IMG/VR virus record: IMGVR_UViG_3300029262_000344
Coordinates: 1 to 32,488 of that record
Source: a virus
Strand: one strand, 5' to 3'
Length of the DNA stretch: 32,488 nucleotides
Of this stretch, positions 2,794 through 12,938 are shown in pieces. The position numbers and the translations under genes are program-made. The notes under the pieces were generated by a model that was not told the DNA's origin, did not search any database, and was given only the letters and a program-made list of their open reading frames with translations. Within the stretch, counting starts at the first letter, position 1. Each line of letters opens with the position of its first letter.

Positions 2794-5700
2794 CTATAAG
2801 TTTCCTATTTTTATTAATAATTCTAATAATTCTTTTTGTGGGAACACGTCTGCTTTATCTGGTCTATATGAGTTGTGAGTATAAATACCGTCAACGAAAG
2901 TACTTGCAGATTTAGAATATTTACCTTTCTTAGGAAAAACATCATCAAAGTTATTATTATTTAGGTAAATATTAATGTTTTTAGTAGATTTCCAATTTAC
3001 TAGGACTTTTTCTAATTCAGACAGCATTGAAGGAGTGTATGACTGGTATCTTTTATATCCTTTATATCCCCCAGGCATTTTTACAACATTATTCTTATCG
3101 TCTAACATATAGGGTTCACTAGTATCACTAAAAGGGATTTCAGAATCAACATAACTATACCACTTACCATCCCTTTCTGTTAAAAAACCTATGGCTTCTA
3201 ACTCAATAGATAAAGATTGTTCATTTAATTTAACATTATTATATTTATATGGATTACCACTACCTGCACCTATACCTAAATGGTTAGACCAATATACATC
3301 AGGAAAAACATGTTCCGAGTGTCCTTCTCTTTCTATAATGTAGTGGGTTGCTATTGGGTATGATTTCTTAGTCCAGTTTGTACCAATCTCCTGTTTAGCA
3401 TTACTGCTTCCGGCGGTATGGTGTAGTACTATTTGATTTTTACCTGTACTTTTTGGGTAATAAATTAGGCCTGATTTTGTATTTTCATTCCGTACACTAT
3501 AACCTGTAGTTAATGTAACTTTAGGTGCATCTCCTTTATATACTACGTAATTATCTGATGCTAATTTTGTGATTTTACTAATCTCAGTATTAACAAACGC
3601 TCCTATATTTTGTTCTTTTGTTTTAGGGGTAGATATAGTAGTTAAGGAAGTAGTCCAATCATTGTTTGAAATTGTATGATTAACTTTGGAAATTACAAAC
3701 TCTAAAGCATCCGGATATTGTTGTGGTAAAAACTCTTGTCTAATATTTAGTTTTTGATACATTTTTATCCCAGAAATCCCGTCACAAGTTAAATCTAAGT
3801 TTAAAGGTATAAATCCTATTTTAGTAGAGGGTGTTCCTGTAGCAGCATATAGAGCATTATCAAGAATGTTGACATATCCTTTAAAGGATTGTTTTCCTTG
3901 TTTTATGTATTCGTCATTTAAATGAAAATAGTAACCTTTTAATTCTGTTTGACCCTGTATTTTTCCTCTAAAACCTTGAATCAAATATCTGATATAACCA
4001 TCTGCGAATTTTTGTAATTCTTCAGCTTCAGGTGGAATGCCACTTTCTACATCTTCTATTACTTCCTCTATATATTTAGCCCAAAAAACATTATTGTAGT
4101 TTTTATTAGTAACTGGGGAATTATCTACGTCCCTTTTACCTGTAGAGGACTTACCGAATATTGTAGAAACGGTGTCATTAGATGGTCTACTAGCACCAAA
4201 AAAGTTTCTCTTATCTAATACTCCCTTTGTAGTAAAATGTGTATATAACTCATTAACTTGTTTTAGGGTAAGAGGTGCGTAAATATTGTCTAAAGTTGTT
4301 AATTTGTCCTTGTTTATTTGTGGGGGGTCTTGAAGACCATATTGGTACTGATCTCTTAATCCAGTATTCCAACTTGAAAAAGCAGTTGCATCGTAATTTT
4401 TAGTTGATGAACCATTAGCTGTGGCTCCAATAGATATCATAGATGCTAAATCGGGACCAATACTTGTTTTAAATCCAAATTCTCTAACAATATTAGAGGT
4501 AGGTATTAATTTATTTCCTTCACCTCTACCTTTAAGGTTATAACCATAAAGCTCAAAACTTGAAGTACTATCAAATTTACTTTTAAACGAACTATTTTCA
4601 ATTCCCCTAATTCTATTTTGATCTTGGATCTTTATAACGTTATCATCACTTATAATAGGTTCTAGATTAGGTATTCCACCTAATGCACTATTAATACCGT
4701 CACATATTTCTTGTAGAAATTTAAATAGATATATTTCCCCTTTTTTAGTTACTTTATCTAAGGCATTAGATATAAAATCATAATTTAAGTAAATATTTAA
4801 GGTTTTTCCATATATAATACTTCCATCATTTTCAGTTACCATCCAATCATTCATCCTCTTAGCAAAGTCCCAATATGATTTTATGCCAGTTTTATTAGCA
4901 GCAAATTCATTATAGTTATTTAGGGAAAGATCATCTAGAAATTTAGGTTTTACTAGAGCAATTTTAGGATTTAAAGATATTTGATTAGGATATGCTGACA
5001 TTATAGTCTCATCCACATTCGTATCTACATCTAACATATAACCATTTGATAATCTAGGGATACAAAACTTTTTTATCTTTTGCAATAATTCTCCTAATGT
5101 TAAATAATAACCAAATCGGTCAATATCCACTCCTTCACCGTCATTTAGTGTTTTTATTTGAGCTAACATATCCCCTCCTGCTTTTTCTTCAGGTAGATTT
5201 AAACTCCAATACAAGTTTAAGTAGGGGTATTTTTCTCCCCACCACTTTGCACTTCCTTTACTATCTACAATATCTGTAAATAGATCATATGCTAATGGAG
5301 AGGTACCTGCATTTGTAACAAGGGTTGATTTAGCTAATGTAGCTTCTAAACCACTAATCCCAGTATCATACCCATTTATTATTTCCTCTATTTCTTTTTC
5401 TGTTTTAATATCTGCTGGGTTATTAACTTTTATTGATTCTATTACATCCCCTACTGATATTAAGTTTAAGGTAATATTATAAGTTCCATCTCGATCAAAA
5501 TCCCAAGAAAAATTAGAAACCTTGCCTATAAACCCATCGTAGTTACTACTATAAGTCTCTCTATATCTACTTACATCTTTAATCAATTTAGTAAAATTGT
5601 AAGTTTCAAAATCTTGAAACCAAATATCCTCCATTAAGGTATTACCCATTTGTTGGAGATTTCCTTCATTATTTATAAACTTATCATTACCCCATTCTAA

Positions 5701-6333
5701 CAACATAGTATACCCTAATCTTAAATACAGTAACTCTATTAATTCAAATTGGAATTTGTTGTGTGCTTTAATAGTAACTACAGCTTTTCTAATTGAACCC
5801 CTATTTAAGGCTTCTACTTTAGCATCTATTAGACCTGGAGGTGGTGTTAAACCTTGTTGGCTTCCTCCTAGACCATAGGCACTTGAATTGTTCCATATGT
5901 CACCGGTTTGACTTACACCTGATCTAAAATTATAATTACCTTGTGTTCCTTTTCCTTCTTTATCTTTTACAGAAGATATAACTTCAGAGGTTGAGTTAAA
6001 CAATACTGTTTTTTTTGCTAACCTATTACCCATAAAATCCTCAGAGTTTGGTAAACCTATAGCTTCTATTCTATCAGCACCATTCCTTCGGTTACTATTT
6101 TTATATTCTTCTTCTGTAAGATCGGGGGAGGTTTTTTTAAGTTCTGCTACAATTTCAGGGGTAGTTAGAAATCGGACTGATGAACCTAATTTTAAAAAAG
6201 AGTTTTGGTTATTTTGGATCTGGAGTTGCTCAGGTGTCCTACTACCATCAAAACCACTACCAGCAGTTTGTTGGCGGATAGTTATTTGGTTTTTTACAAA
6301 ATCGTCAAAAGCTTCTCCTACTAATTGTCCCAT
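2794..6333 (-). CDS. Baseplate hub protein with C-terminal N-acetylmuramoyl-L-alanine amidase domain
   Basis: This is a very large structural protein (1179 aa) in the baseplate cluster. The last ~220 residues read as an Amidase_2/PGRP-type zinc amidase. VLHHTAGSS (969-977) holds the first zinc His. THYIIEREG follows (about 996-1004), then SIELEAIGF near 1042-1050. THNSYRPDKAD (1152-1162) supplies the second His and the final Asp ligand. Such enzymes cut the bond between muramic acid and L-alanine in peptidoglycan. The first ~950 residues are probably the hub itself, playing the part of T4 gp27 and gp5; the stretch with IELLYLRLGYTMLLEWG near 200 looks like a structural domain. T4 carries a lysozyme in gp5 at the tail tip. 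Here an amidase seems to do the same job of local wall digestion during injection. Amidase call strong; hub call inferred from size and neighbours. Confidence 0.75.
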   Translation of the reverse strand: MGQLVGEAFDDFVKNQITIRQQTAGSGFDGSRTPEQLQIQNNQNSFLKLGSSVRFLTTPEIVAELKKTSPDLTEEEYKNSNRRNGADRIEAIGLPNSEDFMGNRLAKKTVLFNSTSEVISSVKDKEGKGTQGNYNFRSGVSQTGDIWNNSSAYGLGGSQQGLTPPPGLIDAKVEALNRGSIRKAVVTIKAHNKFQFELIELLYLRLGYTMLLEWGNDKFINNEGNLQQMGNTLMEDIWFQDFETYNFTKLIKDVSRYRETYSSNYDGFIGKVSNFSWDFDRDGTYNITLNLISVGDVIESIKVNNPADIKTEKEIEEIINGYDTGISGLEATLAKSTLVTNAGTSPLAYDLFTDIVDSKGSAKWWGEKYPYLNLYWSLNLPEEKAGGDMLAQIKTLNDGEGVDIDRFGYYLTLGELLQKIKKFCIPRLSNGYMLDVDTNVDETIMSAYPNQISLNPKIALVKPKFLDDLSLNNYNEFAANKTGIKSYWDFAKRMNDWMVTENDGSIIYGKTLNIYLNYDFISNALDKVTKKGEIYLFKFLQEICDGINSALGGIPNLEPIISDDNVIKIQDQNRIRGIENSSFKSKFDSTSSFELYGYNLKGRGEGNKLIPTSNIVREFGFKTSIGPDLASMISIGATANGSSTKNYDATAFSSWNTGLRDQYQYGLQDPPQINKDKLTTLDNIYAPLTLKQVNELYTHFTTKGVLDKRNFFGASRPSNDTVSTIFGKSSTGKRDVDNSPVTNKNYNNVFWAKYIEEVIEDVESGIPPEAEELQKFADGYIRYLIQGFRGKIQGQTELKGYYFHLNDEYIKQGKQSFKGYVNILDNALYAATGTPSTKIGFIPLNLDLTCDGISGIKMYQKLNIRQEFLPQQYPDALEFVISKVNHTISNNDWTTSLTTISTPKTKEQNIGAFVNTEISKITKLASDNYVVYKGDAPKVTLTTGYSVRNENTKSGLIYYPKSTGKNQIVLHHTAGSSNAKQEIGTNWTKKSYPIATHYIIEREGHSEHVFPDVYWSNHLGIGAGSGNPYKYNNVKLNEQSLSIELEAIGFLTERDGKWYSYVDSEIPFSDTSEPYMLDDKNNVVKMPGGYKGYKRYQSYTPSMLSELEKVLVNWKSTKNINIYLNNNNFDDVFPKKGKYSKSASTFVDGIYTHNSYRPDKADVFPQKELLELLIKIGNL

Positions 6334-8934: not shown

Positions 8935-11307
8935 TTATTGTACTTCGTATAAACCTACTGCTGATAATTGTGGTTGTTTTGTTTGTTGAGTAAGTAGTGC
9001 TTCTAATAAATCGTTTGTTTTATTAGCTTGTTTGATCATTGGGGAGTTATCATTTAAAGGTATTACAGCTTCAGGACCTGCTTCACCCACAAGTGCGTTA
9101 GTCGGGCCTGTTACTATACCACCTTTAGCCATTTCGGTCGGCCTGTCTTCCCCAAAAACATTACCACTAATTCCATAATTAGTCTGTGCTGATGCTTCAG
9201 CAGTTTGGATTTGTGCTTTAATAGCACTATCTCCAAATTCTCCCCCAAATAAGAAACCAATCCCATTAAGTAAATCTTCTATAGCTGCTACACCTACTAA
9301 TACGGTTTGAATCATAGGGTCTAAAAAAGACATAATTGCTCCCACAAAACCAAAAAGTTTTGATATTATACTTACTATGGGCATTATAGCATTTCCTACT
9401 GTAACAAATACCTCTTTTAGTTTTTCAACAGTAGCGTTAAATTTATCTTGAGCTCCTACTTGATTATTTAGTCCCTCAACTCCTTTTTCTTCAAGTATTC
9501 GCATTGCTTCCGCTTCCCCTACTTGAGCCCTTAACGTCTCAAATTTTTTCTGGGCTGCCTCCGCGTCTTTTGCTGTAAGGCCTGAAAGTTTGTCCTGCAT
9601 TAATAATGTAGATGCTAAATCCTCTCTACTCATACCAACAGATTTTGCTAAAGCTTCCTGTTGTATTCTATTTAGCTCTCCAAATTCAGCAGAATCTCCC
9701 ATTTGTTCAGAGATTTCTCTAGCTACTCCTGCTATATCGTTATTTAAAGCAAATTGTCTTGCTTTTTCTAGGTTTATGTCTCTACCTAATAGTAATTCTG
9801 CTTGTAACTCATTTTGAATAGAAGATTCAAAATCGAGTAAGCTACCCGCTATGGCATCTACTTTACCCATTTCCATACCTAGAGACTTAGTAGTGGCAAC
9901 TGCCTCCGCTATTAGTCCAGGGTTTTTTCCTAATGATAGGGTGGTTGATGCCGATATATTACCTATTTCTTTAAGTAATTTTTGTTCATTAAGTAAAACT
10001 CCATTTTGTGTAGCTGATATTCTAGCCTGTGCTAAGAACTCCCCTGTAATGTCTTCTGTAGTTTTACTAGTTCCTAGTTGTAAACTAGCAATTCCTTGTA
10101 GTTCTTCATTAGTAAAACCTGACATGGTTCTAAGTTTAGTAAAAGATATCGCCATATCTTCAGACATCATTGAAGATGTTCCTAAAGCAGAATTTATTCC
10201 TTCAAATGTTTCTCTAATTCCCTTAGTAGTAACAAAAAGTTCACCTGAGGCTGAAGCCATGTTGGTCATTTCCATATTCATACCTAAGGCATCATCATAT
10301 GTCATACCAAATTCTTTGGCCATTTTTGATGATGAGGCATCCACGCCTTTCATAGCATCGACCAGTTCTTTAAGTAGATATAAAGGTCCTAAAGATTTTA
10401 AAAGGCTTTTACCTAAGCTTTTAATACCGGCCTGCATCCCTGTAACCCCCTTCTTTGAGGATTTAGTAATGGACTTCATATCACCATCACCTATGCCCAT
10501 TTTAGTAGCCTTTTTAGAAGCTGAGGTTCCTGAGAGTACCTTCCCGTTTTTACCTAAAAGTTTATCTTCTAGGCCCATACGTTTTACAGCATCAATAGTT
10601 AAGTCTTTTCCTGACTTTAAGGCTTCTTTATCTAATTTCCTTTGGTCCTGTTTTGCAGCAACTATATCATCTTGAAGACCCTGTTCTACGGCACTATCTG
10701 TTGCTGCTTGTCTTGCGGCATCCGACGCATTTTGAAACATGCTAGTAAACTTTCCTAAACCTGGAATAGCATCTGATATTTCATTTAAGCCATCAAATAG
10801 TCTAACACCACTTTGATTGTTAATGCTAGTTTGAAATTTTTCTACTTTTTCTATTGATTTTAAAAAATCTTCAGATTGTTTTACTCTTTCTTTTACTTCT
10901 GCTAGTTGTGCCCCTTCAAGCATTCCTGATTTTGCTGCAATATCTAGTCTTTTAAATTCTTGTTTGACTAAAGATTTTTTCTGTTGGATTTGCTTATTAG
11001 TCAGGGTTACTTGACCACCAAGGACTTGAGTAAAGTCTTCTGCTATGTTAACTAAAGATTTAAATGATTTTTTTGATACAGCTAAAGCATAGTTACTCTT
11101 TTGAAGTTCTTGGATACTATCTCCTAGAGACTTTGCAAAGTAATCTACATCACTATTAATAGCAAGAAGTTCTCTTCTTAATCTAGATAATTCAGCATTA
11201 GATTCTTTTAAACCTCCAGTAAACTTTTTATCAAAGTCTACCTGCCCCAATTCCTTTCTAATAAGGCGGATTTGTTCGTTAATCTCGTTTAAATTATTCT
11301 TAGGCAT
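8935..11307 (-). CDS. Tail tape measure protein (T4 gp29 counterpart)
   Basis: A 790-residue, mostly helical protein. The N-terminal 200 residues form predicted coiled coil (regular Leu/Glu/Lys pattern). The centre is rich in Ala, Ser, Met and Glu. A hydrophobic segment at about 639-688 has the membrane-interacting character expected of tape measures. The C-terminus has the signature string AKGGIVTGPTNALVGEAGPE and then AVIPLN (727-752), seen near the ends of many tape measure proteins. Tape measures set tail length and pass through the tube at injection. At about 0.15 nm per residue the length predicts a tail near 115-120 nm, longer than T4's. The gene follows the frameshifted chaperone gene, the standard order for tailed phages. 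Confidence 0.88.
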   Translation of the reverse strand: MPKNNLNEINEQIRLIRKELGQVDFDKKFTGGLKESNAELSRLRRELLAINSDVDYFAKSLGDSIQELQKSNYALAVSKKSFKSLVNIAEDFTQVLGGQVTLTNKQIQQKKSLVKQEFKRLDIAAKSGMLEGAQLAEVKERVKQSEDFLKSIEKVEKFQTSINNQSGVRLFDGLNEISDAIPGLGKFTSMFQNASDAARQAATDSAVEQGLQDDIVAAKQDQRKLDKEALKSGKDLTIDAVKRMGLEDKLLGKNGKVLSGTSASKKATKMGIGDGDMKSITKSSKKGVTGMQAGIKSLGKSLLKSLGPLYLLKELVDAMKGVDASSSKMAKEFGMTYDDALGMNMEMTNMASASGELFVTTKGIRETFEGINSALGTSSMMSEDMAISFTKLRTMSGFTNEELQGIASLQLGTSKTTEDITGEFLAQARISATQNGVLLNEQKLLKEIGNISASTTLSLGKNPGLIAEAVATTKSLGMEMGKVDAIAGSLLDFESSIQNELQAELLLGRDINLEKARQFALNNDIAGVAREISEQMGDSAEFGELNRIQQEALAKSVGMSREDLASTLLMQDKLSGLTAKDAEAAQKKFETLRAQVGEAEAMRILEEKGVEGLNNQVGAQDKFNATVEKLKEVFVTVGNAIMPIVSIISKLFGFVGAIMSFLDPMIQTVLVGVAAIEDLLNGIGFLFGGEFGDSAIKAQIQTAEASAQTNYGISGNVFGEDRPTEMAKGGIVTGPTNALVGEAGPEAVIPLNDNSPMIKQANKTNDLLEALLTQQTKQPQLSAVGLYEVQ

Positions 11308-11330: not shown

Positions 11331-11630
11331 TTATCTATAACTTGTTTTACCCTTATATGCATTAGATTCTTGAGCAAATGCTGGTGTGTTTACTTTACCA
11401 TCAGATGAAATTAGAGTTTTATCCCCATTACCATTACTTTTTGCATCTTCCGTCGCTTTATTTCTATTTTCGTAGTAAGAATTCATTTCAAAAAGTGTAA
11501 ATTTACGTAACCATATAGGCATATTATATATAGTATGCCAATCATATCCCCCGTTACCGTGAAATACTATGCTATGGATAGTCTGAAATAAATCTTTCCT
11601 AAATTCGGGCGCTATATTAGGCGTCAGGCC
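11331..11630 (-). CDS. Frameshift-encoded C-terminal extension of the gp26-like tail chaperone (gp51-like)
   Basis: This frame is open for 99 codons from GGC at 11630 to TAA at 11331, in the +1 frame relative to the chaperone gene. Upstream in the same frame two TAG stops lie just before the T run, and the first ATG is only at 11522. Yet the 36 codons before that ATG encode a well-formed sequence (RKDLFQTIHSIVFHGNGGYD, then WHTIYN) that runs smoothly into MPIWLRKFTLFEMNSYYENR. This looks like one domain of the kind found in small T4-like baseplate hub assembly (gp51-type) proteins. The simplest reading is translation as a fusion, about 337 aa in total. A separate 63-residue protein starting at 11522 is the alternative. 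A copy of the late-promoter-like element overlaps the junction to the next gene. Confidence 0.75.
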   Translation of the reverse strand, partial: GLTPNIAPEFRKDLFQTIHSIVFHGNGGYDWHTIYNMPIWLRKFTLFEMNSYYENRNKATEDAKSNGNGDKTLISSDGKVNTPAFAQESNAYKGKTSYR

Positions 11631-12345
11631 AAAAAAAGTTAAGCCCTATGGGGACTAGAACTTCCTCCCCTCCATCAAGCACTACAGTCATGTCTAAATC
11701 TGGTGACAGATCTCTAACATATTCTCTGAAGGCTCTAGCATCTTTTGCTAAGAAATAATTATCTACAAAGTCTCGAATAGATTTTTTTTCTTCATCACCA
11801 TCTACTGATGTGATCATGTATTTTAATCTTGTTGTAAGTTCAGGTGAGGAATTGGGGGAAATTTTCTTTAAACCTTTTAATTCTCTTTCTATTTTTTTAT
11901 CATCATTTCCATCTAAAAGTTTAAAACCTAAAACAGTACCTGTTTGTTCTAATTTGTACGTAAATGAATTATGGGAATCTTCTAAAAGGGAATAATCAGT
12001 TGATTTTGGGTTAAGTTCTGTTAAATCAATAACTTCTTCTTTACCTCTTATAGTTACTTTATATTCTTTACCATACCCCAAAATACGAGTAGCTACAAAT
12101 AAAGCATTTTTATCACCTGTAAATAAATCATCTATTTTTATGTCTTTATTTATAATTACAGCCTGTAATAATTTATCTAATACTGTCCCTTTTTGGATAA
12201 AAGACTGGTTAGTTAGTATATCCTCTTCTTTAGCAGTCATGTACTTTAATTCCACCTTACCACTAGATAGGGGATGGTCTTTAGGATACAATAAGCCTTT
12301 GGATGGTAATTCAACTTCTTCAGTTGGGAATTTAAATTCACTCAT
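11617..12345 (-). CDS. Baseplate hub assembly / tail chaperone protein, gp26-like (T4_baseplate family)
   Basis: A 242-residue protein starting EFKFPTEEVELPSKGLLYP, with the block MTAKEEDILTNQSFIQKGT (residues 36-54). Both are typical of the proteins annotated as gp26 in T4-like marine phages. It is cytoplasmic, with no signal or membrane segment. The C-terminus ends in NFFWPDA, and the two Phe codons lie in a run of seven T bases where a +1 slip would lead into a further 99 codons. Its place immediately before the tape measure gene is that of the G/GT tail chaperones of lambda-like phages, which coat the tape measure during assembly. It is separated from the upstream tube gene by a terminator. 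The chaperone role is inferred. Confidence 0.78.
   Translation of the reverse strand: MSEFKFPTEEVELPSKGLLYPKDHPLSSGKVELKYMTAKEEDILTNQSFIQKGTVLDKLLQAVIINKDIKIDDLFTGDKNALFVATRILGYGKEYKVTIRGKEEVIDLTELNPKSTDYSLLEDSHNSFTYKLEQTGTVLGFKLLDGNDDKKIERELKGLKKISPNSSPELTTRLKYMITSVDGDEEKKSIRDFVDNYFLAKDARAFREYVRDLSPDLDMTVVLDGGEEVLVPIGLNFFWPDA
11631..11637 (-). other. Candidate +1 (or -2) ribosomal frameshift site
   Basis: The coding strand reads AAC TTT TTT TGG in the chaperone frame. tRNA-Phe on the second TTT can move one base forward and pair perfectly with TTT again, after which GGC is read in the extension frame. The next zero-frame codon is Trp TGG, and a stop follows three codons later. A -2 shift would reach the same frame. 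A -1 shift would soon meet TGA and is therefore unlikely. Confidence 0.65.
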
Positions 12346-12449: not shown

Positions 12450-12938
12450 TTAGAAATTTAAGATACAGTAATCAGGTTGAACTGTTAATTGTAGTTCTAC
12501 TGCTGCACTTTCATCATCCCAACTATAATCTCCGAAATTAGCTTCAGTAATCATAGCTCCTTTGATAATCCATTCTGAAACGATATCACCTACAGGTCCT
12601 AATACGTTCATAGTTAAATCCTTTTTATAGAAATCACTATAACCATCTCTACCAGTTACTGATTCATGGTGTAATCTAACCCATTCCATACATGCTTGTG
12701 CACCACTTGGAGTAATTGGATCAAATAATGTCATTTGAATTGTATTCCAAAGTGTTTTACCTTTTACGTATCTTGCAACGTTGATATGGTTCAATTGAAC
12801 TGTACCTTGTGTTAATGAAACGGCTCCCATACCTTTAATTTGGTATGAAGGGATTCCATCTACATACAGTATAAACCTATTCTTTTGTTTAGGTTCGAAT
12901 GCTGTATAAAATATTTCGTTTGGGTCTAATACTGCCAT
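12450..12938 (-). CDS. 19: Tail tube protein gp19
   Basis: At 162 residues it matches the length of T4 gp19 (163 aa). It follows the sheath gene, as expected for contractile tails. Recognisable stretches are FEPKQKNRFILYVDGIPSY near the start (strand entering the tube fold), HINVARYVKGKTLWNTIQMT in the middle, and SAAVELQLTVQPDYCILNF at the C-terminus, a typical tube-protein end. The protein forms stacked hexameric rings that line the DNA channel inside the sheath. A late-promoter-like element sits 15 nt before the start and a strong terminator follows, in line with high expression. Confidence 0.9.
   Translation of the reverse strand: MAVLDPNEIFYTAFEPKQKNRFILYVDGIPSYQIKGMGAVSLTQGTVQLNHINVARYVKGKTLWNTIQMTLFDPITPSGAQACMEWVRLHHESVTGRDGYSDFYKKDLTMNVLGPVGDIVSEWIIKGAMITEANFGDYSWDDESAAVELQLTVQPDYCILNF

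Follow-up and report, generated by a model that had tools for sequence, protein, structure and literature searches.

Locus and encoded proteins

The window analysed here is the whole of a 32.5-kb IMG/VR virus record (32,488 nt), which carries T4-type genes for the Gp23 capsid, gp20 portal, terminase, sheath and tube. On its minus strand, a gp26-like gene for the putative short tail assembly chaperone (TAC-N; 11617–12345, 242 aa by standard translation) lies directly downstream of a gene for a gp19-like tail tube protein (12450–12938; phrog_4542, E = 1.3e-22) and directly upstream of a putative tape measure gene on the same strand (8935–11307, 790 aa). The latter was assigned by size and position and shows no significant family match in Pfam or PHROG, and the matching gene in phage immuto is annotated as a tail tape measure protein. 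The order sheath, tube, TAC, tape measure is common to the window and its relatives, which places the locus between tube and tape measure genes, as expected of G/GT-type chaperones. Elsewhere on this strand, a 1179-aa baseplate-region protein (2794–6333) has an Amidase_2 (N-acetylmuramoyl-L-alanine amidase) domain at its C terminus.

Read directly from the minus strand, the gp26-like frame ends with AAC TTT TTT TGG CCT GAC GCC TAA. This is the NFFWPDA end, with Phe codons inside seven T bases, given in the preliminary description of this DNA: the zero-frame stop is at 11617–11619, the T run at 11637–11631, and the candidate slip site TTT TTT TGG (U7GG) at 11629–11637. Over the slip, the +1 frame reads TTT TTT GGC CTG ACG and continues as a +1-frame extension, TAC-C (11331–11636, minus strand), of 101 codons plus a stop (11333–11331); the 99 sense codons described earlier are recovered by counting from after the two Phe codons to that stop. 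The +1 frame is closed on the 5′ side by the two TAG codons that had been reported just upstream of the T run (11657–11655 and 11648–11646), and our census of ATG, GTG and TTG agrees that no usable +1-frame start precedes the ATG at 11522. A single four-base step at the first TTT yields a TAC-NC fusion of 337 aa, the approximate length predicted before.

By its match to PF12322/phrog_150, which T4 gp26 and gp51 both match as well, TAC-N is predicted to be a member of the T4 gp26/gp51 chaperone family. It matches phrog_150 (baseplate hub) with E = 8e-9 and PF12322 with E = 2e-4, a value that by itself is under the Pfam cutoff; PF12322 is matched by 21 of 35 relatives, the best at 6.7e-16. We modelled TAC-N and TAC-C separately. 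The predicted TAC-N model has a pLDDT of 90, and among viral proteins that carry a name it is closest to T4-like baseplate hub/assembly proteins; against the PDB, Foldseek returned nothing significant for TAC-N (the HK97 chaperone 2ob9 was a weak hit, E = 2), a Foldseek search with TAC-C gave no match, and sequence searches of solved structures gave nothing useful. By hhalign, cyanophage gp51 matches both TAC-C of the +1 group (probability 89.5%, E = 2e-6) and the C terminus of T4 gp51 (88%, E = 2.8e-6), while direct comparison of +1-group TAC-C with the single T4 gp51 was not significant. On these comparisons, TAC-C is homologous to the C-terminal domain of gp51 transitively, through the cyanophage link. 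Gene order and homology agree with the earlier description, in which a gp26-like chaperone is extended by a gp51-like domain immediately ahead of the tape measure gene; gene position together with homology also suggests a chaperone function.

Both reading frames in relatives

We collected relatives by scans with the ORFs of the window, Flavobacterium phage immuto and Microcystis phage Mel-JY01, and every scan gave at least 586–600 confirmed relatives, of which 80 were kept. Among the matches listed are 245 loci of the +1 class, and for 237 of them, from the three main families, the slip site served as an anchor; hosts of the relatives include Flavobacterium, Microcystis and Rhodothermus. In these 237 listed loci, the zero-frame stop follows the first slip TTT by 15–36 nt and the +1 domain, where complete, is 67–116 codons long. 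None of the 237 fuses TAC-N and TAC-C in frame, and the relatives have no conserved start of the second domain's own near 11630, two arrangements that the preliminary description had set against its own reading. It had also proposed a comparison of related phages, and in the relatives both frames are conserved. The motif TTT TTT TGG, or a one-T variant of it, stands in register in 198 of the 245 +1-class loci among the matches listed, and the remainder are UUU-Y variants (TTT CTT TGG, TTT CTA TGG, TTT TTT TAC, CTT TTT TGG, etc.), with UUU-U still present in the three loci that have CTT TTT TGG.

Upstream of its first ATG, TAC-C evolves under purifying selection in the +1 frame alone. Over 5733 codons, the +1 frame contains 0 stops, whereas the counts for the two remaining frames are 351 and 948. 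Between the zero-frame stop and the MPIW ATG, dN/dS is 0.20 in the +1 frame, versus 1.3 and 1.8 in the others, which bears out the earlier remark that the codons before the ATG at 11522 encode well-formed protein. For TAC-C as a whole, the median dN/dS is 0.28 over 964 pairs, with every pair below 1. In 82 of the 237 loci among the matches listed, the first ATG, GTG or TTG after the upstream +1 stop comes no sooner than 45 nt beyond the slip, and in 53 of the 237 a mere 5 nt separate the +1 stop from the TTT that follows it. These start-free stretches and nearby stops indicate that the +1 frame is entered within the short overlap. By both dN/dS and start-codon census, TAC-C is a second frame that is translated with no start of its own, as in G/GT-type systems. 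The stretch AAC TTT TTT TGG CCT GAC shows zero synonymous variation in 61 distinct sequences of the window's family; dual coding explains part of the invariance of the slip codons, which contrasts with a share of TTC among Phe codons of 24% elsewhere in these genes.

The public records of immuto (L001, 3139–3249) and Mel-JY01 (L002, 2989–3225) list TAC-C as a hypothetical protein of its own, whose annotated start is late or spurious. A +1 overlap with a UUU-Y slip is also found in Listeria phage LIS04 and relatives (L190, L351, L352), Streptococcus phage GXN1 (L005) and RM378 (L004).

Elements upstream of the slip site

While accurate on the coding facts of the site, the preliminary description had overlooked two elements upstream of it, both on the minus strand. 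These are an SD-like purine-rich element, GGAGGGGAGGAA, at 11662–11673 (−36 to −25 from the first slip TTT), and a hairpin region at 11638–11661 (−24 to −1), where AGTCC (11656–11652) forms the core stem with GGGCT (11646–11642).

An SD core at −36 to −22 occurs in 31 of 31 window-clade representatives (less than 85% identical to one another), versus 19% in a codon-preserving null, and in other segments of the gene its frequency is at most 10% in the window clade and 0–18% overall. The immuto family has it in 62% and the Mel family in 68% of cases, versus 21–23% in the null. Since the residues encoded by the element differ by family (G-E-E; E-E-G, D-G-G or E-G-G; R-R-E or V-K-E) and the Glu codon at −30 is GAG in 59 of 59 cases in the window's family against a background of 8%, the SD-like signal looks to be at the nucleotide level. 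The distance from the end of the core to the slip, ~24 nt, falls outside the spacings known to stimulate shifting, which are 3 nt upstream for +1 and 9–14 nt for −1 (PMC5009743).

The 3′ end of the hairpin is 4 nt before the slip in the window and, across stems, usually 1–6 nt before the TTT. Recurring stems vary in sequence and register (AGTCC/GGACT, GCCC/GGGC, GACCA/TGGTC, GACATCC/GGATGTC and CGCATCC/GGATGCG), and a distant 484-kb phage genome has a 7-bp hairpin, CGCATCC-CGTT-GGATGCG, immediately 5′ of AAC TTT C. Single-register covariation within families placed paired cells only modestly above the codon-preserving null, since the register of the stem varies, and we base the case for the hairpin on its stability. 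In the window's clade, the minimum free energy is −5.8 kcal/mol versus −1.5 kcal/mol in codon-preserving shuffles, with p ≤ 0.05 in 31 of 31 representatives, and the excess of stability is confined to the last segment of the gene before the slip. A significant hairpin was found in 39% of Mel-family and 20% of immuto-family representatives, and some +1 members, e.g., RM378 and GXN1, have a weak hairpin or none. In the LIS04 group, GXN1 and RM378, which are distant +1 phages of other hosts, we saw no consistent hairpin or SD-like element. Structure 3′ of the slip gave only a weak signal, with z of about 0 to −6, a range inflated by relatedness, and we make no claim for it; the z-scores for both SD and folding share this inflation, and counts of representatives are safer. 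The conserved layout of SD-like element, hairpin and slip site may act as a +1 stimulator.

Nature of the probable shift and its place among known systems

Natural variants bear on the direction of the slip. The frame relation is unchanged where the site reads ACC TTT CTA TGG (L201, L212, L223 and L226), AAC TTT CTA TTC (LR756508) or GAA TTC TTT CGT (GXN1), and what the characterised +1 members all share is UUU with a pyrimidine after it (UUU-Y). Of the "+1 (or −2)" shift first proposed, the +1 reading is the better one. A backward slip of two bases would reach the same frame, and U7 would let UUU re-pair at −2, but the variants TTT CTA TGG, TTT CTA TTC and TTC TTT CGT keep the frame relation when no such re-pairing is available. 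Cognate re-pairing of tRNA-Phe in them is possible only from UUU to UUC at +1, which disfavours −2 and leaves it highly improbable. Slippage of the transcribing polymerase on the T7 run, giving +1-frame mRNAs, would suit the seven-T homopolymer of most members, yet the run is broken (TTTCTTT, TTTCTAT, TTCTTTC) in the immuto clade, LR756508 and GXN1 with the frame relation kept, and such slippage has no need of a conserved upstream RNA signal; we regard it as extremely unlikely.

TAC-C might instead be a separate short gene with independent initiation or reinitiation, at an ATG such as that at 11522 or at a non-canonical CTG in the overlap. The ATG (NMPIWLR) is indeed frequent in the window's family, and gene callers do call short downstream ORFs in immuto and Mel-JY01. 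Against this stand the strong purifying selection that acts on the +1 frame ahead of that ATG, the replacement of its Met by I, L or F in several relatives and, for the CTG, the presence of CTA in Mel-JY01 and ATA in RM378 where others have CTG. We consider such initiation very unlikely. That a single in-frame gene has been split by a sequencing error, or is a pseudogene, would be a natural suspicion at a homopolymer in a metagenomic contig, but it is refuted by the relatives, since the same overlap recurs in all 237 loci among the matches listed, from many samples and annotated phage records, and none is fused; its probability is negligible. We therefore regard a programmed +1 ribosomal frameshift at this T4-type tail assembly chaperone locus as highly probable. 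It is supported by the conservation of both frames, the lack of a canonical start for TAC-C, re-pairing at +1 only and RNA elements conserved beyond coding; slippage in cells, by a minority of ribosomes, is predicted from these.

With a programmed +1 shift, most ribosomes would stop at 11617 and yield TAC-N. In a minority, the P-site tRNA-Phe on UUU would re-pair one base forward on UUU (UUC in variants), and these ribosomes would read TAC-C to give the 337-aa TAC-NC. If the pair works like lambda G/GT, TAC-N and TAC-NC would each bind the tape measure protein, with the C domain serving to recruit tail tube subunits. The hairpin and the SD-like element 5′ of it may stimulate the forward slip in several ways. 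The hairpin could occupy the place of an SD:anti-SD helix and do its mechanical job; it could loop out sequence and bring the SD nearer (~8 nt would stay unpaired in the AGTCC/GGACT type); or it could zip up as the mRNA emerges from the ribosome, a mechanism proposed for T4 gene 60 (PMC5009743). That a hairpin in or at the ribosome exit channel replaces or repositions the SD helix, that it arose at the switch of direction in the T4-like lineage, and that it perhaps suits Bacteroidota with an occluded anti-SD, is a tentative idea that we think somewhat more likely wrong than right. Ribosomes of F. johnsoniae have an occluded anti-SD and prfB shifting is nonetheless kept (PMC8710568), which makes the question of the hairpin interesting if the hosts are Bacteroidota.

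The closest comparison is with the cyanophage gp26/gp51 pairs (S-PM2, P-SSM2). Like the +1 group, these have a phrog_150 TAC-N, an overlapping TAC-C homologous to the gp51 C terminus, a slip on poly-T shortly before TAC-N ends and the tape measure gene downstream. In contrast, cyanophages slip −1 at TTTTTTC, while the +1 group slips +1 at UUU-Y, and the SD-like element ~24 nt upstream with a hairpin between is replaced in cyanophages by one at ~9–12 nt and no hairpin. Across 40 representatives of the −1-shifting relatives, the SD-like element lies ~9–12 nt before TTTTTTC, and no excess of hairpin stability was found. The window locus has neither a −1-frame extension nor an SD 9–14 nt upstream. 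A conserved SD-like GAGGG in −1 cyanophage loci, including L120 and L180, fits the canonical −1 spacing of 9–14 nt. In Stenotrophomonas phage IME-SM1 (L184, ~1860–2090), a TAC-C-like RIFRLMLPEG stands in the +1/−2 frame though its relatives shift −1; the T run there appears shorter, and an indel or another mode of recoding is possible.

In T4 itself, genes 26 and 51 are separate, on opposite strands and with no frameshift, although their proteins are homologous to those of the TAC locus. Lambda G/GT resembles the present locus in having a short form and a frameshift-extended long form just before the tape measure gene but differs in shifting −1, with no sequence relation shown here. A long form made by frameshifting, binding of tape measure and tube, and absence from the virion are G/GT-type features predicted here by analogy. 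As in prfB (RF2), a pyrimidine P-site codon would slip +1 (UUU-Y in the characterised +1 members, CUU-U in prfB and UUU-U in a few prfB), with an SD-like element upstream and a duplex just 5′ of the slip. However, prfB has UGA in the A site and an SD at 3 nt, whereas here the A-site codon is sense (UGG, CUU, CUA or UUU) and the SD is ~24 nt away. In the window, UGG is used at 8.3 per thousand, neither a stop nor clearly rare. An intramolecular hairpin sits where the SD:anti-SD helix of prfB would be.

To our knowledge, the G/GT shift has long been described as universal in long-tailed phages except T4. Frameshifted tail chaperone genes, of the −1 kind, were reportedly identified in T4-like phages by Vladimirov, Gautam and Davidson (Virology, 2022). 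Papers citing that work mention T4-like groups with separate short and long chaperone genes (PMC10885494) and poly-T −1 signals in other T4-like groups (PMC12846349). The earlier proposal of a G/GT-type system built from T4-type genes is thus supported, but not its novelty, as far as can be judged from these citing papers, given the 2022 publication and the −1 shift of cyanophage gp26/gp51 pairs. In the open papers, including those through which the 2022 study is known to us, we found no earlier description of the +1 class or of the hairpin signal. What appears new, provisionally, is the +1 direction across a broad clade and the conserved upstream signal of SD-like element and hairpin.

Taken together, these findings suggest that a +1 slip is very probably programmed in a large phage family that is related to T4 and mostly marine, and that the chaperone gene is mis-annotated as two ORFs in sequenced relatives. 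A large T4-related group would thus keep a G/GT-type shift in the direction opposite to that of cyanophages. The SD–hairpin–slip layout is a compact candidate for a +1 stimulator which, if true, would add an element beyond the 3-nt rule for SD spacing. With homologous chaperone pairs that shift −1, shift +1 or are encoded by separate genes, the evolution of recoding direction would become directly comparable.
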